From Micavibrio sp. (GTDB taxonomy: Bacteria; Pseudomonadota; Alphaproteobacteria; Micavibrionales; Micavibrionaceae), in contig NZNU01000018.1 in the NCBI GenBank assembly GCA_002695035.1, positions 1 through 39,153 of the forward strand: a stretch of 39,153 nucleotides of DNA. Direction: 5' to 3'. The notes under the pieces are model-generated. The model was given only the letters and a program-made list of their open reading frames with translations, was not told the origin of the DNA and did no database searches. Below are positions 2,237 through 37,352 of the stretch, piece after piece. How positions within the stretch are numbered: position 1 is the stretch's first letter; each line of letters begins with the position of its first letter. Position numbers and translations under genes: made by a program.

Positions 2237-4474
2237 TTATTCCTGATAATATTCCCTATAGCGCCCGTAGTAATAAGCCGTGTCCCCATAGCCATATCGC
2301 GCATGTCGTCTCACATCGACTCCGGACAACACAAAAGCCAGGTTTTCGTAGCCAAAGTCAGAAAATTGCTTAACACCGGTCGTCACAACTTCGCGCGGTG
2401 TCTTATCCCACTCAACAATATAAAGAGTGAAATCGGATTCGCTCGCCAGAATTCTGGCATCAGACACGGCCAGCGCTGCGGGTGTATCCAGAATAACAAG
2501 ATCATAAGTTTCCTTGAGGGACTTTATCAATTTGCGCATTTTTTCTGATGAGATAAGATCCAGCGCTGAATTCGCAACCGCGCGCGCACAGATAATATGG
2601 GCGCCGGACGGATCGTCCTTATTGACCACTTGATTTAACTTCATATCGCCTGTCAAATAATCGACAAGGGTTTTTTCGTTAGACATTTTCATGACACGGT
2701 GCAGATTCGGACGCCTTAGGTCACAGTCTATAACAATAACTTTCTCGCCGGATTTTGCGGCAACGCGGCCAAGCCAGGCCGAAATAGTCGTCTTACCCTC
2801 TGCGGGTAATGACGATGTAACTGTCACAACACGCGGGCGACTTGCCTCATCATTACCGGATCTGAGATTTAAAACCATTCGGAGTGTTCTGATGGATTCC
2901 GCAACAGCAGAAGACGGCTTTTTAATAATATAATCCGCGATGCCGTGTTTGGTAACCGACGAATCTGCGGCAGGGATCAGGCCAAAACATGGGTAACCGG
3001 TTCTTTGCTCCAGCTGTGACGCGCTCCTGAAGGCGTTATCAAGTTTTTCCAAAATCAAAACAAAAGCGATTCCAAGGAAAAGAGAAATGGCCGCCGCCAG
3101 GGAAATGATCAAAGGCTTGTTGGGATAGGATGGGTCCTCCGGCACACTCGCATAGGAGAGAACGCGTGCCTCAGGCTCTTCAAGCTGTTCTCTCTGATCG
3201 GAACGCTTGTATGTTTCCAGAAAATTATCAAAGATAAGACGGTTTGATTCTGCCTCGCGCGTCAGTTCACGCAAGTCGATCATAGCCTTGTTTTCGACAC
3301 GTTTTTGTCCCTGCATTTCTGCCAATGCTTTTTGCAGCTCTTCCACGCGCGCATCGGCGACTTCATACTCGGCGCGCACCGCATCGGCAACCTGCTGTGT
3401 TTCACGCCGCAGGGTTGAGCGCAAATCCGCTAACTCGGCATTTATTTTGATAATTGTCGGGTGCTTTGGACCATAACGAGACGATAAATCAGCTTTTTGC
3501 TGTAGCAGCTCCGTTTCTGATCTTTTGAGATCCTGAATATAGCGTGCATTTAAAACATCCGGGCTGGCATCGGCAACACCGGAATTGGCAACATATCCTT
3601 CAGTATCATTTAATCTTGCAAGTGCCTCAGCCCTTTTTGACTTAGCCAGTACAAGCTGTGTGTTCAGTTCTGAAAGTTGCTGTGCGGTCATCTCGAATCG
3701 CGCACCTTCAATCAGGTTATTGCGCGACCTGTAATCTTCGACAGCCTTTTCAGACTGGCGCACCTGCTCCCTTAACGCAGTTAAGCGGTTATCCAGCCAG
3801 TTCGTGACCTTTTGCGTCGCAAGGAATTTCTCCTCGAGGCGCTGCTCCATGTAGACATCCATAACAATATTGGCGACCAGCGCTGCTCTTTGTGGGTCAC
3901 CTGACGTATAGGAAATTTGGATGACATAGGATCCGGGAACCGGCTTTACAGCAAGATTGTTTTGGAAAACGGCAATAGCACGGTTCATTTTATCCGATAA
4001 AACGGGGTTTTCATCCGACGTCATTTCGGTTCTGTAAACTGAAAGGCTTTTAAATTCAGTTTCATTTTCCGCAGGTGTGGTCATAAGGGATTGTGAAGAA
4101 GTCTCATCCTCTGCCATCATGTTGAGGCGCATGATTACACGGCGCGCTGTTTCACGCGACTTCAAAACCTCCACTTCACTTAAAACCAAGGCCGTATCAA
4201 GGCGCATTTCCGACATAAAGTTTTGTAACTCTATGCCTTTCGGATTAATGCTCTCACTCTCGATCATCACAAGAGACTGGGCAGTATACCGTGTCGGAAG
4301 AAGAGACGATATGATGGCTGCAACAGCTACAGTCACCACAACAATACCCATAACAACCCACTTCCTGCGCCATAACAGCATCAAAAGGCGGCGAAGATCG
4401 ACATCCAGCTCATCAAAATGATGCAACATCTTCGGGGAATTATTCGGGTTTTCATTCATTATACGATTATCCAT
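2237..4474 (-). CDS. Wzc-like polysaccharide copolymerase and tyrosine autokinase (BY-kinase)
   Basis: 745 residues. Order of parts: cytosolic N-terminus, membrane helix at about 39-59, Wzz-type domain, long periplasmic coiled coil (about 210-430) with a GNVR-type region, second helix at about 453-474, then a cytosolic P-loop kinase. The kinase has the BY-kinase Walker A (SSLPAEGKTT, Lys561), Walker A' (IVIDCD, 580-585) and Walker B (LVILDT, 659-664) motifs. The C-terminus carries eight tyrosines between 727 and 743, the usual autophosphorylation cluster. Such proteins control chain length and export of capsule or exopolysaccharide together with Wza; cycles of phosphorylation and dephosphorylation drive the process. 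No Wzb-type phosphatase gene is in the window. The gene lies 12 bases after the Wza-like gene and is followed by a terminator. Kinase and transport parts are fused, as in proteobacterial Wzc. Confidence 0.92.
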   Translation of the reverse strand: MDNRIMNENPNNSPKMLHHFDELDVDLRRLLMLLWRRKWVVMGIVVVTVAVAAIISSLLPTRYTAQSLVMIESESINPKGIELQNFMSEMRLDTALVLSEVEVLKSRETARRVIMRLNMMAEDETSSQSLMTTPAENETEFKSLSVYRTEMTSDENPVLSDKMNRAIAVFQNNLAVKPVPGSYVIQISYTSGDPQRAALVANIVMDVYMEQRLEEKFLATQKVTNWLDNRLTALREQVRQSEKAVEDYRSRNNLIEGARFEMTAQQLSELNTQLVLAKSKRAEALARLNDTEGYVANSGVADASPDVLNARYIQDLKRSETELLQQKADLSSRYGPKHPTIIKINAELADLRSTLRRETQQVADAVRAEYEVADARVEELQKALAEMQGQKRVENKAMIDLRELTREAESNRLIFDNFLETYKRSDQREQLEEPEARVLSYASVPEDPSYPNKPLIISLAAAISLFLGIAFVLILEKLDNAFRSASQLEQRTGYPCFGLIPAADSSVTKHGIADYIIKKPSSAVAESIRTLRMVLNLRSGNDEASRPRVVTVTSSLPAEGKTTISAWLGRVAAKSGEKVIVIDCDLRRPNLHRVMKMSNEKTLVDYLTGDMKLNQVVNKDDPSGAHIICARAVANSALDLISSEKMRKLIKSLKETYDLVILDTPAALAVSDARILASESDFTLYIVEWDKTPREVVTTGVKQFSDFGYENLAFVLSGVDVRRHARYGYGDTAYYYGRYREYYQE

Positions 4475-4486
4475 AAAATCAGCCTA

Positions 4487-5242
4487 TCAAAAGAAACGCT
4501 CCTTGATGCGAATTATATCGCCCGGCATAATCTGGTCTTCAGGCTTGAGCATCACGGTAATGTTATCATCTCCCGCAGAACGCACAACCTCAATTTCTTT
4601 GGTCTTGGCGCGATAAGTAAATCCACCACCGACCGCAACAGCGTTTAAAACATTCATCCCATCTATATAGTTATAGCTCCCCGGGCGTCTGACCTCACCC
4701 ATAATGTAAAACGGGCGATATTCTGTGATTTCGATAGACACGCTGGGATCCACCAGATAACCATCGCGTAAACGCTCGGCAATCAGGTCTTCAATTTCAA
4801 TCGGCGTCAATCCCTCAACAGGTATAACGCCAATAAGGGGTACAGAAATATTTCCCTGGCCATCCACCTGATATTGTTTTGACAAAGCCTCCTCCCCATA
4901 AACCGTCATTTCCAAACGGTCACCGGGTCCCACACGATAGGCATTGCGCACAGTCATAGTATCTGGGTCATCCACAAGCAAAACGGTTTCGGCGGGCAAA
5001 ACGTCTTGCACTTCTTCTGAGGACCCTTCAGTTACGATTACCTCTTTCTCAACGATCACTGTCGTGTTTTCGGATTTGGCATTCCTGACAGGCAAAAGAG
5101 GCTCCGCATCCTCGATCACCATCAAGGCGTCCTGATTACCATTGGCATAAACATACTGTCCGGAAACAGCTATAATAACTGCCGAAATTAAAATGCTTAT
5201 ATATAATAGTCGTTTTTTAATAATCATAACCATGAGAACCAT
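4487..5242 (-). CDS. Wza-like polysaccharide export protein (Poly_export plus SLBB domains)
   Basis: 251 residues. An N-terminal hydrophobic stretch (about 11-28) serves as a signal peptide or anchor; a variable acidic linker follows. The Poly_export domain is at about 101-177, starting with the typical YRVGPGDRLEM motif, and one SLBB domain at about 178-228 (FYIMGEVRRPGSY). It should form the periplasmic and outer-membrane channel part of an exopolysaccharide exporter. Unlike E. coli Wza it has no lipobox cysteine and only one SLBB domain, and it lacks the long C-terminal helix that makes the outer-membrane pore, so the pore may come from the beta-barrel protein encoded upstream. Start uncertain: Met1, Met4 and Met6 are all possible and none has a clear Shine-Dalgarno sequence. 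Co-directional with wzc, 12 bases apart. Confidence 0.9.
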   Translation of the reverse strand: MVLMVMIIKKRLLYISILISAVIIAVSGQYVYANGNQDALMVIEDAEPLLPVRNAKSENTTVIVEKEVIVTEGSSEEVQDVLPAETVLLVDDPDTMTVRNAYRVGPGDRLEMTVYGEEALSKQYQVDGQGNISVPLIGVIPVEGLTPIEIEDLIAERLRDGYLVDPSVSIEITEYRPFYIMGEVRRPGSYNYIDGMNVLNAVAVGGGFTYRAKTKEIEVVRSAGDDNITVMLKPEDQIMPGDIIRIKERFF

Positions 5243-5397: not shown

Positions 5398-6780
5398 TTA
5401 ATATTGGCCCGTCAGCCTCACCATAAAAATGTTTTGATCAAACTCGCTTCCATCGAAAGTACTGTCTTGATTCGTATGGATATATTCGCCTTTTATATTG
5501 AAATACGGACTTGGTCTGTACAAAACGCCCAGACCCAACCTGTATAAGTCATCTTCGCGTGTTATGTTTTCAAAATCACGGTTCAGATATGTTATATACC
5601 CATTAAGAAGCAAATTCCTTTGCAATTCATGATCAACGGTAAAGGTTCCGGCGGTCTGGACAATACCTTGAACGATTTCATTATCCTGCACGATGCTCCG
5701 CGTTACGTTCAGTCCAAGCGTCGTTAACTTAGTAATGTTCCATTCTATATCCGCATCCACCGCAAAGCTTCCCACATCATCAATGCTCTCATCATCGTAA
5801 TTTGTTGCGGCATATCCGACACCGATATCACTCAGCAGAATTCCTTTATAATTTGTTACAATCCCCGCCAATATGCGGCCATTGACACTATCTCTGAACG
5901 TACCCGTATATGTGTTACTGCCATCATCATATATGCTGTCTTCAAATTCTGTTTTTCCGGCTGTCCCGCGAATGAAGGCTGTGTGATTTACAGGAAACTC
6001 GTATGAGGCCTCCAGTTCCAATTCGTTTGTATTAAAATCCGCATCGCTTTTAACCACCCTTACCGATGGATCCCGCAAAGACACCCCGTCATCATATCTT
6101 TTGCGAATGTGTCGCCCTGTTGCCGATAGCCCTATGCGATTTGGCCTGTAGGCAACACCCGCCTCTGCGACCAGCTCGGAAATTTCCAAAGGGTCGCGGG
6201 TGAATACCTGTGATAAATTATCCGCCCTGCTCTGGTGGTCAACAGTATATGTCAGGTTGTAGGGAAGCAGAAGGTCGTGACGCGCCTCAAAATAACCACC
6301 TGCGTTCACGTAATAATTTTCACGATTTTCTGAAGTTTGCTCCAGCTGACGTATAATTTCCGCATTTGCTTGAAGACCAAAAAAATGTCTGTCCTGTAAA
6401 GTTTTGACCGTTATGGCCGGTATAACATGTTCGGCTATATCCGAAGTTTCATTCTCACTGGTCGCATAAAGATTGTCGTTATAAAGTGTTTGAAATGAGA
6501 GTTGGGGCAAAACATTAAGTTTGCCAATAATGACGCCTTTCGGAGCCAGATCAGGAAATTGCCTGTCTTTTACCGGCAGGAAAGTTTCTTCATCAGGTTC
6601 ACGCGCAACCGAGCGTACATCATAGACCTCTCCGAAATTAGCATCTTCTTCGGTGGGTTGATCTATGGATTCAGATGCAGCGGCACTTTTTATACATAAG
6701 GGCATTGCCTGTGCCGCCGCAAAAACAAATAGCAGCAGGCACAGCTTTAAATAGCCGGAATAAGTGTGTTTTACAAACAT
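5398..6780 (-). CDS. Outer-membrane beta-barrel protein of an exopolysaccharide locus
   Basis: 460 residues. A signal peptide is followed by a linker of about 65 residues, then a long series of alternating amphipathic beta strands from about 95 to the end. The last residues (MVRLTGQY) end in an aromatic residue, as in proteins inserted by the Bam complex. It resembles the OMP_b-brl_2 type barrels found in exopolysaccharide and capsule clusters of proteobacteria. Its position directly upstream of wza-wzc, on the same strand, suggests it forms or supports the outer-membrane exit pore for the polymer. Signal peptidase cleavage is probably near AAASES (residues 33-38). The family is judged from strand pattern and context, with no single diagnostic motif; a function as general porin is the main alternative. 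Confidence 0.75.
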   Translation of the reverse strand: MFVKHTYSGYLKLCLLLFVFAAAQAMPLCIKSAAASESIDQPTEEDANFGEVYDVRSVAREPDEETFLPVKDRQFPDLAPKGVIIGKLNVLPQLSFQTLYNDNLYATSENETSDIAEHVIPAITVKTLQDRHFFGLQANAEIIRQLEQTSENRENYYVNAGGYFEARHDLLLPYNLTYTVDHQSRADNLSQVFTRDPLEISELVAEAGVAYRPNRIGLSATGRHIRKRYDDGVSLRDPSVRVVKSDADFNTNELELEASYEFPVNHTAFIRGTAGKTEFEDSIYDDGSNTYTGTFRDSVNGRILAGIVTNYKGILLSDIGVGYAATNYDDESIDDVGSFAVDADIEWNITKLTTLGLNVTRSIVQDNEIVQGIVQTAGTFTVDHELQRNLLLNGYITYLNRDFENITREDDLYRLGLGVLYRPSPYFNIKGEYIHTNQDSTFDGSEFDQNIFMVRLTGQY

Positions 6781-6859
6781 GTTGAGTGCTTTAGAAAAGT
6801 TAAAAGCGTGAATAATAGTGGTGAGAGCACCCCTGAAGAGAGCGCTGGCGAATCACCTA

Positions 6860-6887
6860 ATTATAGCATTCCGAAACATTATGACCA
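6860..6887 (-). promoter_or_regulatory. Candidate promoter for the beta-barrel gene
   Basis: On the minus strand TGGTCA (6887-6882, four of six) is followed after 16 bases by a perfect TATAAT (6865-6860). A leader of about 75 bases would precede the ATG at 6780. It lies just upstream of the export genes and just downstream of the response-regulator gene. Confidence 0.45.
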
Positions 6888-6911
6888 GAGTTTTCCAAAG
6901 AATGTGGATTA

Positions 6912-7721
6912 TTAATTGGCCGAAAAGCTTTTGTTTAAAAGCGTCGCGCCGGACGGAAGCTCAACAAGTCTTAAATTTATAATAACGTCCAGTTCCGGCC
7001 TGTCCTTAAATCCTTTTGCAGCAGACAGATTGTCCACAAAGCGCAAGGTTGCCTCGCGCGGCTCACCTTCAGACGATATCAACAAGAAGAGTACGGCATA
7101 TTCAGCCTCATCCAGCTGGCCCAATATGTCACTTTGTCGCCTTGTGGCCGATAGCTGATGGGCCAGCTTTGCCGTTGCCAGCTTTGCCGCATCGGGGCTA
7201 TCCGCACTTAGCTGCCTGTGATTTTCAACCCTGATAAACAGGCAATATGTTGGCTCTCCATGTCTATCAGCCCTCTCAACACAAGACAGGAAAATCTGGT
7301 TAAAGGCAGATTTTGAAATAATCCCCCTCTCACTCGGATAGTCCGTTTTGAGATCAGACAGCTTCCCCCGAAGCTGTAAAAGATCCGTAGCTTCCAGAAT
7401 AGTTTTTTCCAAAACAGTTGGGTCTGCTGGTTTATTTAAAAATTTATTTGCACCCGCTTTAAGAATATTTTCCGGCTCATCATGGTTGAGCATAATTATG
7501 TAAGGATAGGATTTTGAAGCATTCCGCAGGGCCGTAAAAAACTGGCGCGGCTCTCTTAAAGGCGCAGGGTCGGCGATAACAATCTTGAAATCCTGCTTGC
7601 CTACCATTTGTAGCGCCGCCTCTCGTGAGGTCTCCACCATAACTTCATATCCCATAGATTGCAGTCTTAAGGCAATCTGGTTGCTTGAAGCTTCGTCTCT
7701 GTCAATAAGTAGTATTTTCAC
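6912..7721 (-). CDS. Response regulator with receiver domain and degenerate GGDEF-like domain
   Basis: 269 residues, GTG start. Residues 1-115 form a receiver domain: acidic residues Asp7 and Asp9, phospho-acceptor Asp51 (IVIADP) and conserved Lys97 (NKPAD). Residues about 133-260 have the pattern of a diguanylate cyclase domain (RQSDILGQLDEAEYAVLF matches the usual R-x-D-x-x-x-R-x-GGDEF-x-x-L region), but the signature GGDEF is replaced by LDEAE at 203-207, so c-di-GMP synthesis is unlikely. It may bind a nucleotide or a partner, or act as an output-only scaffold. It lies on the same strand directly upstream of the exopolysaccharide export genes and may control them; that link is inferred from position. 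No histidine kinase gene is nearby, so it depends on a kinase elsewhere. Confidence 0.8.
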   Translation of the reverse strand: MKILLIDRDEASSNQIALRLQSMGYEVMVETSREAALQMVGKQDFKIVIADPAPLREPRQFFTALRNASKSYPYIIMLNHDEPENILKAGANKFLNKPADPTVLEKTILEATDLLQLRGKLSDLKTDYPSERGIISKSAFNQIFLSCVERADRHGEPTYCLFIRVENHRQLSADSPDAAKLATAKLAHQLSATRRQSDILGQLDEAEYAVLFLLISSEGEPREATLRFVDNLSAAKGFKDRPELDVIINLRLVELPSGATLLNKSFSAN

Positions 7722-7804
7722 AATTTGAATCCGTTGAAACAGTTTGGCCTTTTTCTATATTTTCACGAAAGCAGCAATTTGGAAAGGGTCAAAATACCAA
7801 GGCA

Positions 7805-9247
7805 TTAATTTTTCCATAAGGCGGGAATAAAAAGAACCAGCATGGTTAAAATCTCCAATCGCCCGGCCAGCATACCCGCCGAGAGATACCATTTCGCAGC
7901 ATCGGTCAGCGTGCTGAAATTTCCAACCGGGCCTATGACCTCTCCAAGTCCGGGCCCAACATTTGCAATCGCCGTTGCTGACCCGGATACAGCCGTTATA
8001 AAATCGACCCCGGTTGTACTGAGCAGCATGGCAAGAACCAGATTGGTAAAGAGATAAATAAAGAAAAATCCGACAATCGAAAGTATGGTCTCAGTCTTGA
8101 CCGCCTTGCCGTTATATTCTGTTGCAAATACACCGCTTGGGTACACAAGTCTTTGCAACTGATGCTTAATAACGCGCATTAAAATAACAATACGGAATAT
8201 TTTTAATCCCCCCGAAGTCGATCCTGCACAAGATCCCAGATATGTCAGAAAGAAAAAGATACCAACCGCGAAGCCACCCCAAAGCTGGTAATCTTCTGAG
8301 ACATATCCTGTTGTCGTGATGACCGATACGACATTAAACAGGGCGGGTATAACCTCTCTGAAAAAGGACTGCTCGCCAGTCAGAGTTTCACCGATAAGGA
8401 GGAAAAACGAGGTTAACAAAATAATTTTCAAAAGTGCGACAACCTGCTCATCACGAAAAAAATTCCATTTTTTTTGAAAAATCATATTGGTGTAAAGGAC
8501 AAAAGGGATGGCCCCGGACAGCATAAAAATCGTAGCGGCAAACATAAGTGCCTGACTGTCAAAAAAGGCGAACGACGTATCATGCGTTGAGAATCCACCC
8601 GTTGAGACTGTCGTTAAAGCATGGTTGAAGGCATCAAACGGGTTCATATCCAAAAGCGAATAGGTGATATAGCACATAAACGTCAGAAAAACATAAGCGC
8701 TCATCAGAGAGTAAATGTAATGGGCCGTAAGCGGAATTGATTTGCTGGAGCGGTCTGAGGATTCTGCGTGAAAAAGATGCATACCCCCGACACGCAAAAC
8801 CGGCAAAAGAATAATGGCAAAAGCTATAATTCCAAAACCGCCGAACCACTGACTTATTGAGCGCCAGACGAGAACACCTCGTGAAGTATGCTCAAGATCG
8901 GTCAGAACTGTTGCCCCGGTTGTTGTCAAGCCCGACATTGCCTCGAAAAACGCATCGGTAAATGTCAAATCAAGCGTACTCATGTAGAGCGGCAGCGTGC
9001 ATAAAAGCGCCATCCATATCCAGCTCATTGTCGTCAGCAAAAAAGCCTGTGCGGCCGTCATACTTTTCTGGTCGTTGTTACTGACAAAGAAAAGCAAGCC
9101 GCCGAGAAAAAGGGCAAGAATAGAAGCAATCAGGAATGCCGGCATATCCACTCCGGATTCGGCGAACTCGAACCCAAGAGGGACAAGCATTGCAGCCCCG
9201 TATATGATCGATAAAATACCGAGTGTGTATGAAACAAGCGATAACAT
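7805..9247 (-). CDS. trkH: TrkH-type potassium uptake protein
   Basis: 480 residues from the ATG at 9247; a TTG at 9274 would add nine. It is the membrane pore subunit of the Trk potassium uptake system, with four membrane-loop-membrane repeats. The four selectivity-filter loops are visible: LTTTGAT (filter glycine 111), VSTGGFS (217), TTTGY (314) and IANVGPG (431). The conserved basic residue in GSTSGGLK lies in the third repeat. TrkH needs the cytosolic NAD/ATP-binding subunit TrkA for regulation; trkA is not in the window. AAGGA lies just before the ATG at 9247 and the length from there fits the family, which is why I chose it. The gene is divergent from rnd and is followed after 83 bases by the response-regulator gene. 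Confidence 0.93.
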   Translation of the reverse strand: MLSLVSYTLGILSIIYGAAMLVPLGFEFAESGVDMPAFLIASILALFLGGLLFFVSNNDQKSMTAAQAFLLTTMSWIWMALLCTLPLYMSTLDLTFTDAFFEAMSGLTTTGATVLTDLEHTSRGVLVWRSISQWFGGFGIIAFAIILLPVLRVGGMHLFHAESSDRSSKSIPLTAHYIYSLMSAYVFLTFMCYITYSLLDMNPFDAFNHALTTVSTGGFSTHDTSFAFFDSQALMFAATIFMLSGAIPFVLYTNMIFQKKWNFFRDEQVVALLKIILLTSFFLLIGETLTGEQSFFREVIPALFNVVSVITTTGYVSEDYQLWGGFAVGIFFFLTYLGSCAGSTSGGLKIFRIVILMRVIKHQLQRLVYPSGVFATEYNGKAVKTETILSIVGFFFIYLFTNLVLAMLLSTTGVDFITAVSGSATAIANVGPGLGEVIGPVGNFSTLTDAAKWYLSAGMLAGRLEILTMLVLFIPALWKN

Positions 9248-16148: not shown

Positions 16149-17423
16149 ATGAAACGTGTTGTTATCACAGGTTTAGGTATGGTTTCACCCCTCGGAGCAG
16201 GGGTGTCTCACAATTGGGATAAAATCACATCCGGCACAAGCGGTATCCAGAAAATAAACCGTTTTGATGTGTCTGATATCACATCCCAGGTCGCGGGACT
16301 CGTCCCCTACGCCGATAATGCCGGCGAAAATTCTTACAAATTCCACCCTGATGATGTGGCCTCCCCCAAAGAGCAGAAAAAAGTAGATACTTTTATTCTT
16401 TATGCTTTGGCCGCGGCTGAAGAGGCCGTACAAGATGCAGAGTGGACACCGCAAGACGCGGAAAGTCTTGAGCGCACTGGCGTTATGATCGGCTCGGGCA
16501 TCGGCGGCCTCCAAACAGTTTACGATACATCCATGACCCTGAACGAAAAGGGTCCGCGCCGCGTATCGCCCTTTTCAATCCCTGCGATGCTTATCAATCT
16601 GGCATCCGGTCATGTCTCTATTAAGTATGGCTTTAAAGGCCCAAACCACTCTGTTGTAACAGCCTGCGCAACCGGCACACACGCTATTGGGGATGCAGCG
16701 CGCCTCATTATGCTTGGTGATGCGGATGTAATGGTAGCAGGCGGCGCAGAGGCCGCTGTCAATCGCTTAGGTGTTGCCTGTTTTGCGGCCGCACGAGCGC
16801 TGTCCACATCATATAACGACAGCCCTGAACAAGCCTCCCGCCCGTTTGATGAGGGCCGCGACGGGTTTGTGATCGCTGAAGGTGCTGGTGTAGTTGTTTT
16901 AGAAGAATATGAACACGCCAAAAAGCGTGGTGCGAAAATTTACGGTGAAGTCACAGGTTACGGCCTTTCAGGGGACGCGTACCACATTACATCTCCCGCC
17001 GAAAACGGTGATGGCGGATATCGCGCGATGAAGGCCGCATTGAAAAATGCAGGACTTAATCCGGAAGATATTGATTATATTAACGCACATGGCACATCCA
17101 CACCGCTTGGTGATGGAATTGAATGTACAGCCGTTAAGCGCCTATTCGAGCCCGCACTTGATACGGTCTCCATGTCTTCAACAAAATCTGCTATCGGGCA
17201 TTTGCTTGGTGCGGCAGGGGCCGTTGAGGCCATATACGCGGTAAAGGCAATGGAGACAGGTATTTTGCCGCCGACACTCAATCTTGAAAACATCTCCGAG
17301 CCATGCAAGGGGATTGATCTTGTGCCTTTACAGGCAAAAGAGAAAAAGGTTGATGCCGTATTATCCAACTCCTTTGGTTTTGGCGGCACAAATGCCAGCA
17401 TCGCCATAAAGTCAGTTTCGTAA
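16149..17423 (+). CDS. fabF: 3-oxoacyl-ACP synthase II
   Basis: 424 residues. Condensing enzyme that extends acyl-ACP with malonyl-ACP. The catalytic triad is Cys173 (TACATGTHAIGD), His314 (NAHGTSTPLGD) and His351 (KSAIGHLLGAAG), and the C-terminal GFGGTNAS is also present. Length fits FabF. No clear Shine-Dalgarno sequence is seen; the gene starts 45 bases after acpP, beyond the hairpin. In many related genomes mltG follows directly; here about 3.2 kb of polysaccharide-related genes intervene. Confidence 0.96.
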   Translation: MKRVVITGLGMVSPLGAGVSHNWDKITSGTSGIQKINRFDVSDITSQVAGLVPYADNAGENSYKFHPDDVASPKEQKKVDTFILYALAAAEEAVQDAEWTPQDAESLERTGVMIGSGIGGLQTVYDTSMTLNEKGPRRVSPFSIPAMLINLASGHVSIKYGFKGPNHSVVTACATGTHAIGDAARLIMLGDADVMVAGGAEAAVNRLGVACFAAARALSTSYNDSPEQASRPFDEGRDGFVIAEGAGVVVLEEYEHAKKRGAKIYGEVTGYGLSGDAYHITSPAENGDGGYRAMKAALKNAGLNPEDIDYINAHGTSTPLGDGIECTAVKRLFEPALDTVSMSSTKSAIGHLLGAAGAVEAIYAVKAMETGILPPTLNLENISEPCKGIDLVPLQAKEKKVDAVLSNSFGFGGTNASIAIKSVS

Positions 17424-17434
17424 ATTTACCTAAA

Positions 17435-18667
17435 CTATCCCTTGTTAATGAAGAAATCCAATCGGTGATCAAGCTCGCGGTTTTGGCTCTCGCGTTGCGC
17501 TGGCTTAAAGAAAGCATAGGAATAGCTGAGTGCCAGAAACACCCAAAAACCTGTATTTCTGAAATTCTGGTGCGTCAGCCCATATAGTATAATCGGGATC
17601 AGCAATGCGCCGTAATATATAGGTAGCCTTCTAAACACCATGGCAAGAAACGTAAAGAACAGCGTGAAGCCTATAATGCCATACGAAAACAAAATTGTAG
17701 CGATACCGGAGTGCAGTTCTTGACGCGCATTAAAGCGGTAATGCGCGCCTTCACCTGCACCTGCTATCAGATATTGGGGGTAGTCGATAAGGCGGGAATA
17801 GCCGCGGACACGCGCACTGTCATCTCTATCATCGCCGATTTTAGAAAGCCTGTTGCTAACCGCCTCGATACTGTCTGCATTGGTAATCAGTATGCTGATC
17901 TCGCCCGGGGCAGTAACCTTGGTAATGATTAGTGCCGCAAGCCCAAGCATAAACAAGGCCTTAAGACGTTTATTTGCCACAGGTGAAAATGCCATAAAGA
18001 CAACCACAAGGCCGAACGTAATGAGGCCGGCCTTGGAAAGGGCTTCAGCCTGAACAAACGCCAACATTGAGAACAGAGCCATATCAAAAAGATTTAACGA
18101 GCTGGATCTTTTAAGAACGATCAGAATGCACGCCATCAGAAGCGACCAGTAAGCCAGCTGGTTCGGATTATTGAATGTACCGGTATGGCGGGGCCCGCTC
18201 GAATCCAGAAAGAGAACATACAAAAACTGCATAACCGTAATTATGGCCACACAAATGTACGTGGCCTGGTTCATCGTATATGGGGCCCGCCGAAACAGAA
18301 AAATGACAAAGCAAAATGCAAGGAAGTTAAAAATATAAAATGCGCTACTCAGAAGAAAGAGCGTGTCCAGCGTAAATGCATAATATGTCAGGTTAACCAC
18401 AAATGTCAGTATAGCAAACGCCCCGCCTAATAAATAAGCAGAGTCGAGTTTCGGTTCAGGCAATAAGGCCGACAGAATGACCATAGGGAACAAGCCCAAG
18501 ACCAGCACCATATCTGCCGGCTGTGGCATGCCGCTATAAAAGACGTAAAACGGGGACAGCAAAAGGTAAGAAATCCATACAACAAGCAAGTAGCCGGGCA
18601 ACGCGCGGGAGATGCCTCGCGTATCACGTGCATCTTTATAGGCATTATACAACTTGATTTGCTTCAT
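17435..18667 (-). CDS. O-antigen polymerase/ligase-like membrane protein (paralog 1)
   Basis: 410 residues, about ten to eleven membrane helices, of the Wzy/WaaL type. The family joins undecaprenyl-linked repeat units to each other (polymerase) or to lipid A core or another acceptor (ligase) on the periplasmic face. Characteristic segments are GTFNNPNQLAYW (163-174), the GAGEG loop at 303-307 and ELHSGIATILFSYGIIG from 317, where Wzy_C-type proteins have their second large periplasmic loop. It is a close paralog of the next gene upstream; the upstream stop (TAA) abuts this ATG, so they are translationally coupled. It converges on fabF with 11 bases between stops. Sequence cannot decide polymerase versus ligase. 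Confidence 0.8.
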   Translation of the reverse strand: MKQIKLYNAYKDARDTRGISRALPGYLLVVWISYLLLSPFYVFYSGMPQPADMVLVLGLFPMVILSALLPEPKLDSAYLLGGAFAILTFVVNLTYYAFTLDTLFLLSSAFYIFNFLAFCFVIFLFRRAPYTMNQATYICVAIITVMQFLYVLFLDSSGPRHTGTFNNPNQLAYWSLLMACILIVLKRSSSLNLFDMALFSMLAFVQAEALSKAGLITFGLVVVFMAFSPVANKRLKALFMLGLAALIITKVTAPGEISILITNADSIEAVSNRLSKIGDDRDDSARVRGYSRLIDYPQYLIAGAGEGAHYRFNARQELHSGIATILFSYGIIGFTLFFTFLAMVFRRLPIYYGALLIPIILYGLTHQNFRNTGFWVFLALSYSYAFFKPAQRESQNRELDHRLDFFINKG

Positions 18668-19867
18668 TTATTCCCTCGCCTTATTTGCGAGTTTACCTTT
18701 TTTCACAGTTTCCGTATAGACCCCTTTGTCTTTAAAAAAATGTCCCGCATAGGCCACAGCCAAGAAAATCCAGAAAAAGCTGAACCTTATATTCTGGTGT
18801 GTCAGGCCAAACAGGAATATAGGGACCAGCAGCGCTGTGTAGAAGAATGATAACCTGTAAAAAGCAGAGGCAAGAAACGCGATAAAAAATCCGAATCCGA
18901 AAATGCCGTAGCTGAAAAGCAGTGTAGCTATGCCCGAATGTAATTCCTGCCGGCCAAAGCGATAATATGCGCCTTCCCCCGCACCAATTAAAAGGTAACC
19001 CGGATATTCCACAAGTCTCATATACCCGCGCGCCTCAGGCGTATCATCGCTCTGTTTTCCAAATGTTCCCAGTCTTTTTGAGACAGCATCTACCGCATCA
19101 AAGCCCATAAAAAAATCATATATTTTGGGGGCATTTCCCACGTAAGAAATGGAAAAAAGGGCTGCAAAAAGCAAAACAAAATACCTGTAGCGTCGGGGCA
19201 TGTTTGGCGAGAACACGAACATGAAGAAAAGAAGAAAAAACACAACTATTCCTGCTTTGGAAAGAGCCAGCATCTGCATGTATGTCAAAATCGCAAAGGC
19301 CGCCAAGTCAATAATCGTAAATCTCATTCGCCTTTTTAAAACCAGGAGCATGGCCGCAGTCAGAACGCACCAATACGCAAGTTGGTTGGATCTGTTAAAA
19401 GTACCGCTGGCGCGCACATCATCGTTATCAGGGAAAAGCAAAAGCACAAACAACTGGAACACAATCATGACCAGCAGGGTTTTATAGGTTGTTAGATTCA
19501 TGCGCTCAGGATCGCGATCAAATAACATCACCACAAACATGAAAATAAAGAAATTAAAAAGGTAGATAAAAGAGTGCAGGGCAAATTTTATGTCGGGTAT
19601 AAAAAAATAATGGATAAAGTTAATTGTAAACGTCAACCCGACAAACATCGCTCCAAAGACATAAACTGAGCGAATTTCCTTTTGAAAATTTAATAATGTC
19701 AGCGCAAAATACAGACAAATCGCAAAAAATATGAGAATATCTGCTGGTTGCGGATATCCGCTTTTGAATAAATAAAATGGTGAAAGAAATAAATATATGG
19801 CCCAAACCCATATGAAAGAGGTAGGCGCTTTATGCGACGAATGTAAAAAAGGTGACTCCGGAAGCAT
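18668..19867 (-). CDS. O-antigen polymerase/ligase-like membrane protein (paralog 2)
   Basis: 399 residues, about ten to eleven membrane helices. Matches paralog 1 over its full length, most strongly in the blocks GTFNRSNQLAYW, LALSKAG, LIGAGEGAYYRF, QELHSGIATLLFSYGI and GLTHQN. The pair must come from a local duplication or have been acquired together. The start at 19867 makes its 5' end overlap that of the divergent transglutaminase-like gene by 71 bases. There is no other Met before the first helix and no strong ribosome site, so the true start of one or both genes may be a non-ATG codon. One copy may polymerise and the other ligate; this is inference. Confidence 0.8.
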   Translation of the reverse strand: MLPESPFLHSSHKAPTSFIWVWAIYLFLSPFYLFKSGYPQPADILIFFAICLYFALTLLNFQKEIRSVYVFGAMFVGLTFTINFIHYFFIPDIKFALHSFIYLFNFFIFMFVVMLFDRDPERMNLTTYKTLLVMIVFQLFVLLLFPDNDDVRASGTFNRSNQLAYWCVLTAAMLLVLKRRMRFTIIDLAAFAILTYMQMLALSKAGIVVFFLLFFMFVFSPNMPRRYRYFVLLFAALFSISYVGNAPKIYDFFMGFDAVDAVSKRLGTFGKQSDDTPEARGYMRLVEYPGYLLIGAGEGAYYRFGRQELHSGIATLLFSYGIFGFGFFIAFLASAFYRLSFFYTALLVPIFLFGLTHQNIRFSFFWIFLAVAYAGHFFKDKGVYTETVKKGKLANKARE

Positions 19868-20597
19868 CAGGTTGGTCTTGCTCTTTCTGGCGTTGTCATG
19901 CGTCGGGCTGCTGGTTTTGTTTATTCATAAGGTTGACACAAACATAACTTCGGCGGACAGGGCTGCCCTGCAATCGATGTTTGATAAAGGTGATTATACT
20001 ATATCAGACCTTTCCGATACAGGTCTTTTCGAAGAACAAGTTAAGGCCATACGCGCTGTCCAGGATTCTGTTCTGAACGCCTCACCGACATTAAAAAAAA
20101 TCCCTGTTAAACAGGAGCGGGAGCCCGCCGACTTGCTTGAAGAGGGTCATGGCCAGTGCAGCGACCGCGCACGGGCAATTGAAAAAGCCCTTTTGATGCT
20201 GGACTATAATGTAAGATACGCCTCTCTTTTCAGCCGTGATAAAACTTTCATACCACCAGAAACAATGGCGATTGACAGCGGCAATGATCTTCGTTCGCAT
20301 GCAGTGGTCGAGGTCGAAACAGAAAAAGGATGGCTTATAGTCGACACAAATACCCGGTGGATATCACTTACCTCTTCCGGTCAGCCTGTAAGTCTGGCCG
20401 AGCTTCATGACCGTGCCGGCAACACCAGCTATAATTGGGACAGCGGGAATAAGGGCGAGATCTACTGGCTGATGAAGCGACCTTTTTCTTATGTTTATGG
20501 ACTTTATTCACGTCATGGTATGTTTTATCCCCCCTACACACCCTATATACCTGACATAAATTATAAACAGTTTATCTTTGACAACATTACGGATTGA
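19797..20597 (+). CDS. Membrane-anchored transglutaminase-like (papain-fold) protein
   Basis: 266 residues. A cytosolic N-terminus is followed by one membrane helix at about 24-43 and a periplasmic domain. The spacing of GHGQCSDRARA (Cys121), LRSHAVVEVE (His168) and GWLIVDTN (Asp183) matches the Cys-His-Asp triad of the transglutaminase-like superfamily, whose bacterial members are mostly cysteine peptidases, amidases or peptide cross-linkers. The C-terminal 60 residues are rich in Tyr and Pro. It lies directly before mltG (six bases apart), so both are probably co-transcribed, and it diverges from two Wzy-like genes. It may process an envelope protein or peptide linked to polysaccharide. The start is uncertain: ATGs at 19797 and 19812 lie inside the opposing gene. 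Confidence 0.65.
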   Translation: MAQTHMKEVGALCDECKKGDSGSIRLVLLFLALSCVGLLVLFIHKVDTNITSADRAALQSMFDKGDYTISDLSDTGLFEEQVKAIRAVQDSVLNASPTLKKIPVKQEREPADLLEEGHGQCSDRARAIEKALLMLDYNVRYASLFSRDKTFIPPETMAIDSGNDLRSHAVVEVETEKGWLIVDTNTRWISLTSSGQPVSLAELHDRAGNTSYNWDSGNKGEIYWLMKRPFSYVYGLYSRHGMFYPPYTPYIPDINYKQFIFDNITD

Positions 20598-20603
20598 ATA
20601 AAT

Positions 20604-21605
20604 ATGCGCGGCTTTCTAGGTTTTATATCTCTGCTTTTTCTAACCGCCTTTCTGGCGGCGGCCGGCGTCTTGTTTGGTCTTCACCTCTATTCGGATACAG
20701 GTCCGCTCAGTCAGGAAAAATTTGTGATTATAGCCCCGGGCTCAGGCGTTAGCACGATTGCAGCCACGCTGGATTCGGAAAATGTCATTTCTTCTCCCCT
20801 GCTGTTCAAAATAGCTGTACGCCTGTCAGAGAAGCAGTCAAAACTGCAAGCTGGTGAATATAAATTTGAGCGGGGCATATCTATGGACCGCGTTATCGAT
20901 AAAATCGCCAGCGGTGATATTTTTGTCCGGCAGGTGACAATACCCGAGGGTAAAACCAGCTATGAAACCGTGCAGATTTTAAAGGCGCATGATGGCTTGA
21001 AAAAATCCGAAACCAAAGAATTGAGTATACCTGATGAAGGCAGCTTATTGCCCGGAACATACAGATATCAATCTGGTGACACAGCACGGGCCATAATTGA
21101 AAAAATGCGCAGCGGCATGGAAACTGCCTTAAATACAGCTTGGGAAAAGCGCGCAGGCAATTTGCCACTGAACAACAAACAAGAAGCATTGATACTTGCC
21201 TCCATTATTGAAAAAGAAACGGGCGCGCCGGAAGAGCGGCGACGCGTTGCCGGCGTCTTTATTAACCGTCTTGAGAAAGGCATGCTATTGCAGACCGATC
21301 CAACAGTTATATACGGGTTAACTGAGGGCAGGCACGCACAAGACGGTGAAGGGCCCCTAAACAGGCGTTTACTGACCAGAGATTTAAGAAAAGATACGCC
21401 TTATAATACCTATATGAATGAGGGGCTTCCTCCCGGGCCGATTTGCAATCCCGGCAAAGAATCGATCGAAGCGGCTCTTAACCCTGAACGACATGACTAT
21501 TTTTATTTCGTCGCAGACGGCACCGGCGGTCATGCCTTTTCAAAGACGCTGGATGAACATAACAGGAATGTTGCCAAGTGGCGTAAAATCAGGTCAGGAC
21601 AATAA
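20604..21605 (+). CDS. mltG: Endolytic murein transglycosylase MltG
   Basis: 333 residues. An N-terminal membrane helix (about 7-27) is followed by a LysM-like region and the YceG catalytic domain. The diagnostic block runs from LASIIEKETG (about 198-207, catalytic glutamate in EKE, 203-205) to QTDPTVIYGL (230-239). MltG cuts nascent glycan strands inside the chain at the inner membrane and so sets strand length with the class A synthases. Length fits the family. It follows the transglutaminase-like gene by six bases and converges on the HYTS-motif gene. In related genomes mltG often lies directly after fabF. Confidence 0.94.
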   Translation: MRGFLGFISLLFLTAFLAAAGVLFGLHLYSDTGPLSQEKFVIIAPGSGVSTIAATLDSENVISSPLLFKIAVRLSEKQSKLQAGEYKFERGISMDRVIDKIASGDIFVRQVTIPEGKTSYETVQILKAHDGLKKSETKELSIPDEGSLLPGTYRYQSGDTARAIIEKMRSGMETALNTAWEKRAGNLPLNNKQEALILASIIEKETGAPEERRRVAGVFINRLEKGMLLQTDPTVIYGLTEGRHAQDGEGPLNRRLLTRDLRKDTPYNTYMNEGLPPGPICNPGKESIEAALNPERHDYFYFVADGTGGHAFSKTLDEHNRNVAKWRKIRSGQ

Positions 21606-23687: not shown

Positions 23688-23729
23688 AGACTACATGCAA
23701 TATATATAACAGATAAAGGCATTTTGCTT

Positions 23730-25664
23730 ATGTGCGGCATTACAGGCATATTATCCCTATCCCCAAAAGATGACCTTACCAAGCCCATACGGGCCATGAC
23801 CCGCACCATTAATTACCGGGGGCCAGATGGTGACGGATTCTGGAAAGATGATAAAATGGGCATTGCCCTTGGTCACCGCAGGCTCGCTATACTTGATTTG
23901 TCACCTGCGGGACACCAGCCGATGCAATCCGCCTCTGGCCGCTTTGTTATGAGCTATAACGGTGAAATTTATAATTATCTTTATCTTCAAGCCGCCCTTG
24001 AGGAGAAGGGGCACAAATTCAGGGGTCACTCTGATACCGAAGTTTTGCTAACGGCATTCGAGGAATATGGGGTTCAGAAGACACTTGAAAAAATCTCAGG
24101 GATGTTCGCCATTATTCTATGGGACAGACTTGAGGGCACGATTACATTACTGCGCGATCCACTCGGTAAAAAGCCCCTTTATATTGGCTGGGCGGGCGAT
24201 TCTCTACTTATGGCCTCGGAGCTGAAGGCTCTGAAAGCTGCCCCTGATTTCAAACCTGAGGTCAACCCGGATGTGCAGGCTCTCTATTTAAAATATGCCT
24301 GCGTACCCGCTCCCTACTCTATATATAAGAATACGTGGCAGCTATTGCCGGGACACAGCCTGACACTTAACCCTGAAAAACTGGAGGAGAGGCAGAACCT
24401 GACAGAAATGATGGTTCCTTTCTGGTCGCCCTCAGATATTATTGAAAAAGGACACATTTCCCGGCAGCAACCCCACAATGATGAAACGGTAATAGGGGAT
24501 TTTTCCAAACTTCTATCACAATGCGTCCGTGAAAGAATGATTTCCGATGTGCCGCTGGGCGCATTCCTGTCAGGCGGCATTGATTCCAGTACCATTGTTG
24601 CTCTCATGCAAAAACAAAGCAGCCGGCCCGTTAAGACTTTTTCGATCGGGTTTGAGGCAGAAGGGTTTAATGAAGCCGAATTTGCTAAGGAAGTTGCCAA
24701 CCATCTGGGCACAGAGCACCATGAAATGTATCTCACGCCAAAAGATGCTTTGGATGTTATTCCCGATCTGCCGCGCATTTATGACGAGCCTTTTGCTGAT
24801 ATTTCCCAAATCCCGACCTATCTGGTTTCCAAATTTGCACGAGAGCATGTGACGGTTGCCTTATCAGGAGATGGCGGGGACGAGCTGCTTGGTGGTTATC
24901 GCAGGCATTTCCTAATTCCTCCGATATGGGGCAAGCTGAACAAAATGCCCCACTCTGTGCGGAAAGCGTTGGGGCGGATGCTCTCAACTCTTAACGCGGG
25001 CGGGTTAAATGCTCTTTGGCCAAAGCGTGACGTTCTTCTGTCTGATTCAATAGCAAAGCTTTCCGGTTTGATGCGCCAGGATGATTGGGTAGGTGTGCAT
25101 GACTTTCTCCTCGGATTCTGGGAGGACCCCTATAAAATTGTGCCCGACGCTCAATATTTGCCTCTGCCCTTCAATGACAGGAAAAAACTGCCGGACAACC
25201 TTTCCTTTGCCGAGGAGCTAATGTGGCGTGACAGCATATCCTATCTGCCCAACGACATTCTGACCAAAGTGGATCGCGCTTCAATGGCCGTATCGCTGGA
25301 GGCGCGCGCACCTCTTCTTGATAAAAGGCTTTATGAGCATGTCTGGGGACTACCTGAGCACATGAAAATAAGGGGGGGTAAAGGAAAATGGCTTTTAAGG
25401 CAGGTTCTTGCGCGCCACATACCTGAGGAGATGTTTGATCGTCCAAAGAAAGGATTTTCCCCACCTCTTGCCGAGTGGTTGCTTGGCGATTTAAGAGGTT
25501 GGGCAGAAGAGCTTTTGAGGCCCGAGCGACTTGAAGCAAACGGCTTTAACCCGAAACCGGTCACACAGGCCTGGGATCTGCACCAGTCAGGCCAGCGCAA
25601 TATTCCAGCACAGCTTTGGGCTATCCTTATGTATCAGGCCTGGAAGGAAAAAGAAAAAAGTTAA
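23730..25664 (+). CDS. asnB: Asparagine synthetase (glutamine-hydrolysing) type amidotransferase
   Basis: 644 residues. The N-terminal class II glutaminase domain begins MCGITGI, so Cys2 becomes the nucleophile after Met removal; this fixes the start at 23730 and not at the TTG six bases upstream. RGPDGDG (about 30-36), HRRLAI and SYNGEIYN are glutaminase motifs. The C-terminal ATP pyrophosphatase domain has the PP-loop LSGGIDSS (280-287). The reaction is amidation of aspartate with glutamine and ATP; several relatives in polysaccharide clusters instead amidate sugar acids. Length is in the range of the AsnB/WbpS branch. With many surface-polysaccharide genes in the window, either role is possible. 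Its stop shares four bases with the stop of the convergent gene. Confidence 0.93.
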   Translation: MCGITGILSLSPKDDLTKPIRAMTRTINYRGPDGDGFWKDDKMGIALGHRRLAILDLSPAGHQPMQSASGRFVMSYNGEIYNYLYLQAALEEKGHKFRGHSDTEVLLTAFEEYGVQKTLEKISGMFAIILWDRLEGTITLLRDPLGKKPLYIGWAGDSLLMASELKALKAAPDFKPEVNPDVQALYLKYACVPAPYSIYKNTWQLLPGHSLTLNPEKLEERQNLTEMMVPFWSPSDIIEKGHISRQQPHNDETVIGDFSKLLSQCVRERMISDVPLGAFLSGGIDSSTIVALMQKQSSRPVKTFSIGFEAEGFNEAEFAKEVANHLGTEHHEMYLTPKDALDVIPDLPRIYDEPFADISQIPTYLVSKFAREHVTVALSGDGGDELLGGYRRHFLIPPIWGKLNKMPHSVRKALGRMLSTLNAGGLNALWPKRDVLLSDSIAKLSGLMRQDDWVGVHDFLLGFWEDPYKIVPDAQYLPLPFNDRKKLPDNLSFAEELMWRDSISYLPNDILTKVDRASMAVSLEARAPLLDKRLYEHVWGLPEHMKIRGGKGKWLLRQVLARHIPEEMFDRPKKGFSPPLAEWLLGDLRGWAEELLRPERLEANGFNPKPVTQAWDLHQSGQRNIPAQLWAILMYQAWKEKEKS

Positions 25665-35745: not shown

Positions 35746-36489
35746 TCAGGTTTTTGGTCTGACCACTATTACCTGATTATATTTCCACTTGCGCGGCTCG
35801 CCTTTGAAAATCTTTGAGATAATTTTACGCACCAGCGCTTTTGAGGGCACAAGCCTCAGCGGCCATTGGTGGAAATGTTCAACCACCTCAAATCCACGCG
35901 ATACAAAATAGTCTTCCAGCTCCCGATAAGTCCACTCACGAATGTGGTGTGGGTTGTCGGGCGTCTTTTGGTCTTCATGCGTCATTCGGGCACGGTCAGG
36001 CGTGGAAAATAATATGACCCCGTCATCTGCCAGCTTTAAACGCGCGTAATCCAGTAATTTATCAGGGTTCATAAGATGCTCGATAACATCTGAACTGATA
36101 ATTAAATCCGCCTTGGGAAGATCCATATCCTCTTTTGGGTTTTCGAAATCATCAACAACCCATGTTCCGTAATTATATGTGCTCTGGCAATATTCAATCG
36201 CAGAGGGCTGGTCAACACCTATAATATGCGCTTTTGGATTCTTGTTATGCACCAGTCTCAGCTTGGGCGCCGGCCCACAACCTACATCCATAATGGTTTT
36301 GATATCGCGCTTTTCCGCAAGTTCTGCCGCATAAACATACACATAATACTGGTACAGAAAAGCCTGGCGCGTTCTGTTGGCGTCCCAATAGTCTTTGCCA
36401 CTAACCGCATCCATAGTTTCAAGCGTTTCATTAGGCTCATAATCCGCGGGAAGTCCGTAGGTTTCCTTAGTTTGAGTATCTTTTCGCAT
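35746..36489 (-). CDS. SAM-dependent methyltransferase in the surface polysaccharide cluster
   Basis: 247 residues. Class I methyltransferase: motif I MDVGCGPAP (67-75), acid-loop GVDQ (91-94) and ISSDVIEHL (131-139) at the position of motif IV. The DVIEHL pattern is shared with UbiG/Coq3-type and sugar O-methyltransferases. AAGGAA lies just before the ATG at 36489; a TTG at 36516 would overlap the upstream gene and was rejected. It is the last gene of the minus-strand set flippase-sulfotransferase-methyltransferase, so methylation of a surface glycan is likely, but the substrate cannot be read from the sequence. Confidence 0.85.
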   Translation of the reverse strand: MRKDTQTKETYGLPADYEPNETLETMDAVSGKDYWDANRTRQAFLYQYYVYVYAAELAEKRDIKTIMDVGCGPAPKLRLVHNKNPKAHIIGVDQPSAIEYCQSTYNYGTWVVDDFENPKEDMDLPKADLIISSDVIEHLMNPDKLLDYARLKLADDGVILFSTPDRARMTHEDQKTPDNPHHIREWTYRELEDYFVSRGFEVVEHFHQWPLRLVPSKALVRKIISKIFKGEPRKWKYNQVIVVRPKT

Positions 36490-36500
36490 GAGTTTCCTTT

Positions 36501-37352
36501 TTAAGCTGATTTCCAAGCGGACAAATCTATATCCAGTAATTTTTCAAGATTTTCTATGTCTTCAATGACATAGGCGCGAAGCTCTTCACGAAGTTCAGGG
36601 TCAATGCCTGACCGATATTCCTGTTTGCCTGAGAACAGATTTTGCACCCTGTTGCCACTTGTATTTCCCTCCATGGTTTCCCGACCAAAGAGGAGCTTCC
36701 CAAATCTGTTTTTCATGTAGCTTGCTTTTGTCTTCTTTGGTCCGGCAACGTTTATTTTGCGATTGACGACCCCCGGCGTGGTGCCCGCCTCAATGCCTGC
36801 AAATGCACATATATCCCTGTACGTATCTTCGCCGCGGCCTTCCATTTCCTCCATCATCAAAGGCTTTATATTCTCGCGGGGGAAGTTCTCCAGCATATAT
36901 TTCACCGGCTTTGATAAAAGCCCGTGCTCCATCCATGTCGCATAGCTGTTGTAGTGAACAAGGATATCACCAAAAGAAAAATTAGCACCAATTCCCTGTT
37001 TTTTTATGTGCCAGTAATGCGAGAAGGCCCGGTCAATCGGGTTTCTAAGTCCAAATATCAGCTTTGCATCCGGGTTATATCCCGCTATCCGCTCCAACGC
37101 ATAGGGGCTGCATATATAGGAATAAGTCGGATCAAACCTGATTTTATTTTCATCTTCGCCTTTTGCGTTGTGCGTAAATTGTAGATCGTACCAGTCTTCA
37201 CCTTTTGAATAATGCAGATCAAAATAATGAATCCGGTCTTCGGCACTGGTCACGATCTGCGGATTCTCACATAAGGCCCGATACACCCAGGTTGTGGCCG
37301 TTTTTGGGGGCCCGAGATGAAAAAGCTCGACAGGTTTTTTGAAGTCATTCAT
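36501..37352 (-). CDS. Sulfotransferase (PAPS-dependent)
   Basis: 283 residues. GPPKTATTWVYRAL (14-27) matches the 5' phosphosulfate-binding loop (PKTGTTW) and LRNPIDRAFSHYW (102-114) the 3' phosphate-binding motif (R-x-P-x-x-R-x-x-S) of PAPS-dependent sulfotransferases. These transfer sulfate to hydroxyl or amino groups of carbohydrates, lipids or proteins. No signal peptide is seen, so it acts in the cytosol. It lies 12 bases after the flippase gene and 11 bases before the methyltransferase gene, all on the minus strand, so a sulfated and methylated exported polysaccharide or lipid-linked glycan is likely. PAPS synthesis genes are not in the window. Confidence 0.88.
   Translation of the reverse strand: MNDFKKPVELFHLGPPKTATTWVYRALCENPQIVTSAEDRIHYFDLHYSKGEDWYDLQFTHNAKGEDENKIRFDPTYSYICSPYALERIAGYNPDAKLIFGLRNPIDRAFSHYWHIKKQGIGANFSFGDILVHYNSYATWMEHGLLSKPVKYMLENFPRENIKPLMMEEMEGRGEDTYRDICAFAGIEAGTTPGVVNRKINVAGPKKTKASYMKNRFGKLLFGRETMEGNTSGNRVQNLFSGKQEYRSGIDPELREELRAYVIEDIENLEKLLDIDLSAWKSA

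Follow-up and report, generated by a model that had tools for sequence, protein, structure and literature searches.

The window, the whole stretch of DNA analysed here, is a contig of 39,153 nucleotides from a 2.1 Mb Micavibrio genome (G000). Between fabF and mltG it holds three further genes (Table 1), namely two tandem genes on the minus strand, which we named W1 and W2, and a plus-strand gene directly 5' of mltG, which we named TG. The first-pass annotation had described the former as abutting Wzy/WaaL-like paralogs and the latter as transglutaminase-like. Both descriptions held: the W1 stop abuts the W2 start with a gap of 0, the two proteins are 46% identical across 370 aa (E 2e-98), and TG carries a Transglut_core domain.

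W1 and TG share 71 bp at their 5' ends in a head-to-head arrangement, with the starts as called. The sister genome G002 shows an overlap of equal length, 71 bp, when W1 is started from its conserved Met. The called start of TG is uncertain; an alternative TTG start near 19872 would retain the membrane anchor. W2, W1, TG and mltG are all open, with dN of 0.06-0.14 against G002 and dN/dS of about 0.06 for W1 and TG, so that, compared at the sequence level, they look to be under constraint. A scan for promoters and terminators gave little exceeding shuffled sequence.

Table 1. Genes at the fabF-mltG junction and candidate partner genes elsewhere in the window.
Feature	Position	Strand	Remarks
Wzc/EpsF-like chain-length determinant + kinase domain	2237-4474	-	PF02706 4e-13; TIGR01005 2e-104, below its cut-off; probable partner
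Wza/EpsE-like export protein	4487-5242	-	PF02563 3.5e-25; probable partner
EpsL-like outer-membrane beta-barrel (BBP2_2)	5398-6780	-	PF10082 3e-62; probable partner
fabF	16149-17423	+	Ketoacyl-synthase E 1.8e-61; in relatives usually adjoins mltG directly
W2	17435-18667	-	410 aa; Wzy/WaaL-fold (GT-C_B) integral membrane glycan transferase, probable exopolysaccharide polymerase
W1	18668-19867	-	399 aa; W2 paralog with identical invariant residues; transcribed upstream of W2
TG	19797-20597	+	266 aa; N-terminal membrane anchor (predicted) and transglutaminase-fold domain; Transglut_core E 5.2e-7, above cut-off
mltG	20604-21605	+	YceG E 5.5e-91; start 6 bp past TG end
Asn-synthase-like amidotransferase	23724-25664		XrtA/PEP-CTERM amidotransferase among best NCBIfam matches, below cut-off; homologues adjoin W elsewhere
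Methyltransferase	35746-36516	-	Adjoins flippase gene; possible partner
Sulfotransferase	36501-37352	-	Homologues near W at other loci
Wzx-like flippase	37365-38786	-	PF13440 1.9e-11; probable partner

In fold comparison, the AlphaFold model of W2 (pLDDT 90) matched the O-antigen ligase WaaL (7tpg) with Z 23.3 and rmsd 4.7 over 340 residues, followed by RodA/FtsW (SEDS) at Z 7.5-10.9 and then by unrelated chains at 5.2 or below. WaaL was also the sole significant Foldseek match of the model (E 2.5e-5). The Pfam family PF04932 (Wzy_C) was matched by W2 below threshold (E 0.0042, 17.3 bits vs the gathering cut-off of 31.7), while W1 had no Pfam match at all, and Wzy_C was detected at E<=0.01 in 21 of 69 W relatives. 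When the W profile was compared with eleven Wzy_C proteins of the same order, they matched with a probability of 95% (E 2e-8), and H319 of W2 fell on the second His of HPHN. Searched against PDB sequences, the W profile gave a chance match only, and a PHROGs search returned no match.

The 69 W homologues span Alphaproteobacteria to Lachnospiraceae, and R160, N169, Q170, S211, R288, G303, E306, G307, R311, E317, H319, Y329 and R370 are invariant in all of them. The histidine motif, H319-S-x9-G-x2-G in W2, is carried by both paralogs, and the pattern H[NSQ]x9Gxx[GTY], which we take to be the WaaL-type histidine pattern, is kept in 57 of the 69. The W proteins thus combine a WaaL/SEDS-like fold with conserved periplasmic Args and a His/acidic residue of the acceptor-activating type, the features of the Wzy/WaaL GT-C_B superfamily. 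Within the GT-C_B class, clan GT-C1 comprises inverting Und-PP-sugar transferases (PMC10920833). The model and the motifs support placing W1 and W2 as Wzy/WaaL-fold enzymes in this class and clan, and W forms an uncurated Wzy-like subfamily, spread across phyla, with a clear signature.

We then considered the gene neighbourhoods of W in relatives. Members of the family from other phyla are encoded in polysaccharide operons, including those of the Gram-positives Halobacillus and Lachnospiraceae; these organisms have no LPS, so their W proteins cannot be LPS ligases. Recurrent neighbours are a flippase/GT fusion, an initiating sugar transferase, nucleotide-sugar dehydrogenases and epimerases, and DegT aminotransferases. 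In Micavibrio-like genomes, W adjoins genes for an EpsL-like porin, Wzx and a sulfotransferase, in several of them, and for an Asn-synthase-like amidotransferase. Homologues of the Wzx-like flippase neighbour W at four loci (L090, L093, L097, L099), and other loci have sulfotransferase homologues no more than 10 kb from W. Further, the EpsL-like porin (BBP2_2) is present in 13/13 genomes with W vs 30/58 overall (P 4e-5, ignoring phylogeny). The earlier proposal that the paralogs are related to surface polymers agrees with both the operon contexts and this co-occurrence.

A third recurrent location of W adjoins Tim44/SecB genes (L092, L096, L153), and in one genome (G049, L067/L153) the W homologue there is a pseudogene interrupted by several stops. 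A family of 350-770 aa without clear Pfam assignment was also seen near W in eight loci (L086, at 6043-8364, L088, L090, L093, L095, L097, L099 and L100), and is possibly a further part of the exopolysaccharide system.

The context of a Wzx/Wzy-dependent polymerase, that is, flippase, glycosyltransferases and export genes, is found close to W in relatives and 10-19 kb off in the window, where the Wzx-like and Wzc/Wza-like genes lie on either side of W and form no single operon with it. The genome yielded no BBP2_2 other than the EpsL-like gene of the window. A search of G000 for a PF02397 initiating transferase gave no match, and two stronger Wzy_C proteins, which are ligase candidates, are encoded elsewhere in the genome (contigs C16 and C29).

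In the tree, W1 and W2 each form their own clade of the same six lineages (support 100/99 and 100/100), which indicates that the duplication is old and that both copies were retained. The best tree groups W1 with single-copy Ws, and forcing W1 and W2 together was not rejected (AU P 0.175). Nine differences between the paralogs are fixed, and five of them (H161A, P168S, A314G, N371F and T372S) lie within three residues of invariant positions, a clustering with a hypergeometric P of 0.007 under an approximate background. Some specialisation is therefore plausible, and the sequences leave room for W1 and W2 to differ in repeat-unit or acceptor preference.

TG scored 30.4 bits against PF01841, for which the cut-off is 23, in line with membership of the superfamily. 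The domain is present in 10/10 TG homologues, and C121, H168 and D183 are invariant in all 10. The TG model (pLDDT 82) matched factor XIII (Z 10.4), and also arylamine N-acetyltransferases and LapG; these fold matches go no further than identifying the superfamily. Near the N terminus, a hydrophobic helix (model residues 20-43) is the predicted membrane anchor. The TG sequence had no match in the PDB, and PF06035 (BTLCP/HvyA/LapG) was detected in one of the 10 members, at E 0.028, and not in the window TG at E<=0.1.

Among 58 relatives, TG occurs in six, all with W (P 4e-5, ignoring relatedness). Head-to-head pairs of TG and W stand at fabF-mltG and likewise at L099 and L100, where neither fabF nor mltG is among the neighbours listed; in L086, L095 and L103 TG lies in the same cluster as W without adjoining it. 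The search of relatives for the three-gene set, suggested by the first-pass annotation, thus found TG solely in W genomes and the pair recurring both at fabF-mltG and in exopolysaccharide clusters. That TG pairs with W repeatedly, and in two types of location, argues more strongly than any other observation for a functional connection between them, independent of mltG. A TG profile run across 385 genomes of the class gave no further clear member and one marginal match (E 9e-4), so TG appears restricted to Micavibrio-like genomes at the search sensitivity used.

As expected from the annotation, fabF and mltG are usual neighbours. By hand count among the 49 relatives with both genes found, they are directly adjacent in 33, separated by W in four (G000, G001, G002 and G036), separated by other genes in three, and apart or on different contigs in nine. 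The species-genome scan adds one junction locus with W1, W2 and TG (L080) and five with a single W and without TG (L081, L082, L083, L089 and L105); L089 and L105 are two of the loci where fabF and mltG flank the insert. The other inserts, judged by eye from ORF translations, resemble a methyl-accepting chemotaxis receptor (G047/L172), an M48-type peptidase (G014/L171), and an ATP-grasp protein with a nicotianamine-synthase-like protein (G034/L170). Such unrelated inserts in three genomes indicate that genes have landed at the junction repeatedly. In the tree, the W genes located here cluster together (17 rows, support 94/87, unstarred), and judging from this grouping W probably inserted there once. 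The insertion broke the direct fabF-mltG order and left mltG behind TG, divergent from W. A second MltG, 29% identical, is encoded in the window's genome (L159:4537-5571, on the 7 kb contig C24) and is possibly contamination or a true paralog.

The polysaccharide contexts, the Gram-positive members, the BBP2_2 co-occurrence and the export genes of the window make polymerase the best reading for both W copies. We consider it reasonably probable that both W1 and W2 serve as Wzy-type polymerases in a Wzx/Wzy-dependent exopolysaccharide pathway, that TG is a periplasmic processor or crosslinker, and that fabF-mltG served as the landing site. We counted against this reading the sub-threshold Wzy_C match, the lack of PF02397 in G000, the dispersed partners, and the separation of TG from W at three loci. 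The annotation had instead suggested polymerisation by one paralog and ligation by the other. A Wzy polymerase paired with a WaaL-type ligase would fit the WaaL fold class, the histidine pattern, and the clustering of fixed differences near invariant positions, but every invariant residue is kept by both paralogs, the family extends to Halobacillus, Lachnospiraceae and exopolysaccharide operons, and the stronger Wzy_C proteins on C16 and C29 are available as ligase candidates. We therefore regard this split as unlikely.

The annotation also tied the locus to peptidoglycan synthesis through MltG; in a reading of this kind, TG would act together with MltG on cell-wall peptides. TG and mltG are indeed a few bases apart or overlapping in G000, G001, G002 and G018, and the close spacing makes their co-transcription probable, as had been proposed; the functional meaning given to it found no support. 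Five TG loci (L086, L095, L099, L100 and L103) are part of exopolysaccharide clusters that have no mltG, the junction can hold W in the absence of TG, most relatives have fabF and mltG adjacent, and unrelated genes fill the same gap. Nothing supporting a functional link to peptidoglycan was found in the gene contexts of relatives, and the link of TG and W to mltG is probably positional; a peptidoglycan module is, in our judgement, very unlikely. Another reading takes TG as a LapG-like protease that processes RTX/cadherin surface proteins encoded nearby. An RTX/cadherin-type protein is encoded in the same locus at all five exopolysaccharide-cluster TG loci, and the TG model resembles the LapG fold (Z 8.7). 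Such proteins are found in 52/58 genomes regardless of TG, however, which weakens a specific link; none turned up close to TG where it lies at fabF-mltG, and PF06035 is nearly absent from TGs. We hold a LapG-like role to be improbable. More speculatively, TG and W could be a dedicated pair in which TG, as a membrane-anchored protease or transamidase, exerts direct control by cleaving, deamidating or crosslinking the partner polymerase or the protein acceptor of the nascent chain. We rate this idea as rather improbable; if true, the pair would be a post-translational switch on exopolysaccharide synthesis, transcriptionally tied to mltG by the insertion.

Returning to the exopolysaccharide reading, the analysis shows the fold and motifs, how the genes are linked and co-occur, and that the duplication is old with both copies retained. 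The type of polymer, the catalysis and a TG substrate are putative, and TG might either activate or inhibit the system. W1 and W2 would polymerise the exopolysaccharide repeat unit, and the Wzc-, Wza-, EpsL- and Wzx-like products would supply the rest of the pathway. W would work on the periplasmic side of the inner membrane, transferring the undecaprenyl-PP-linked glycan to the next repeat unit; by analogy with WaaL, its conserved Args may bind the diphosphate and His319 may activate the acceptor. TG, anchored in the membrane, would be a periplasmic Cys-His-Asp enzyme whose target, to be processed or crosslinked, is a protein or peptide belonging to the exopolysaccharide machinery, comparable to the action of HvyA on the Caulobacter capsule. 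Of the polymer assembly module first proposed for this locus, the surface-polymer link of W and TG is retained, and the peptidoglycan link and the polymerise/ligate split found no support.

Compared with known systems, W resembles the O-antigen ligase WaaL (CAZy GT121) and the GT-C1 polymerases (PMC10920833) in its fold, periplasmic His motif and conserved Args. Unlike them, it has an invariant GxGEGxxxRF-like plus ExHS signature and NQL and SK motifs, W1 and W2 have no PF04932 above cut-off, and the family has an exopolysaccharide context and Gram-positive members; as read from sequence, this context and these members argue against a WaaL ligase (GT121) role. As a polymerase pair, W1 and W2 have their closest precedent, by description, in HfsC and HfsI, two paralogous Wzy polymerases that serve one exopolysaccharide, the Caulobacter holdfast (PMC6707917), although W1 and W2 are an exact tandem. 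The export genes of the window resemble EpsE, EpsF and EpsL (NCBIfam), with all scores below the NCBIfam cut-offs. W would be a phylum-crossing, uncurated, putative polysaccharide polymerase subfamily with a clear signature.

For TG, a full-text literature search for transglutaminase together with Wzy, exopolysaccharide and polymerase returned the HvyA paper only. HvyA is a BTLCP of transglutaminase-like fold that regulates the Caulobacter capsule (PMC4241560), and is the closest precedent for such a fold controlling a capsule in an alphaproteobacterium. Like HvyA, TG is a periplasmic Cys/His/Asp transglutaminase-like protein of an alphaproteobacterium tied to Wzc/Wza/Wzy-type genes. HvyA carries a signal sequence but lacks a membrane anchor, whereas TG belongs to PF01841 rather than PF06035 and has a predicted anchor and a C-terminal YxRHGxxYPP motif. 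TG would therefore be a second alphaproteobacterial transglutaminase-fold enzyme linked to surface polysaccharide genes, outside the HvyA family.
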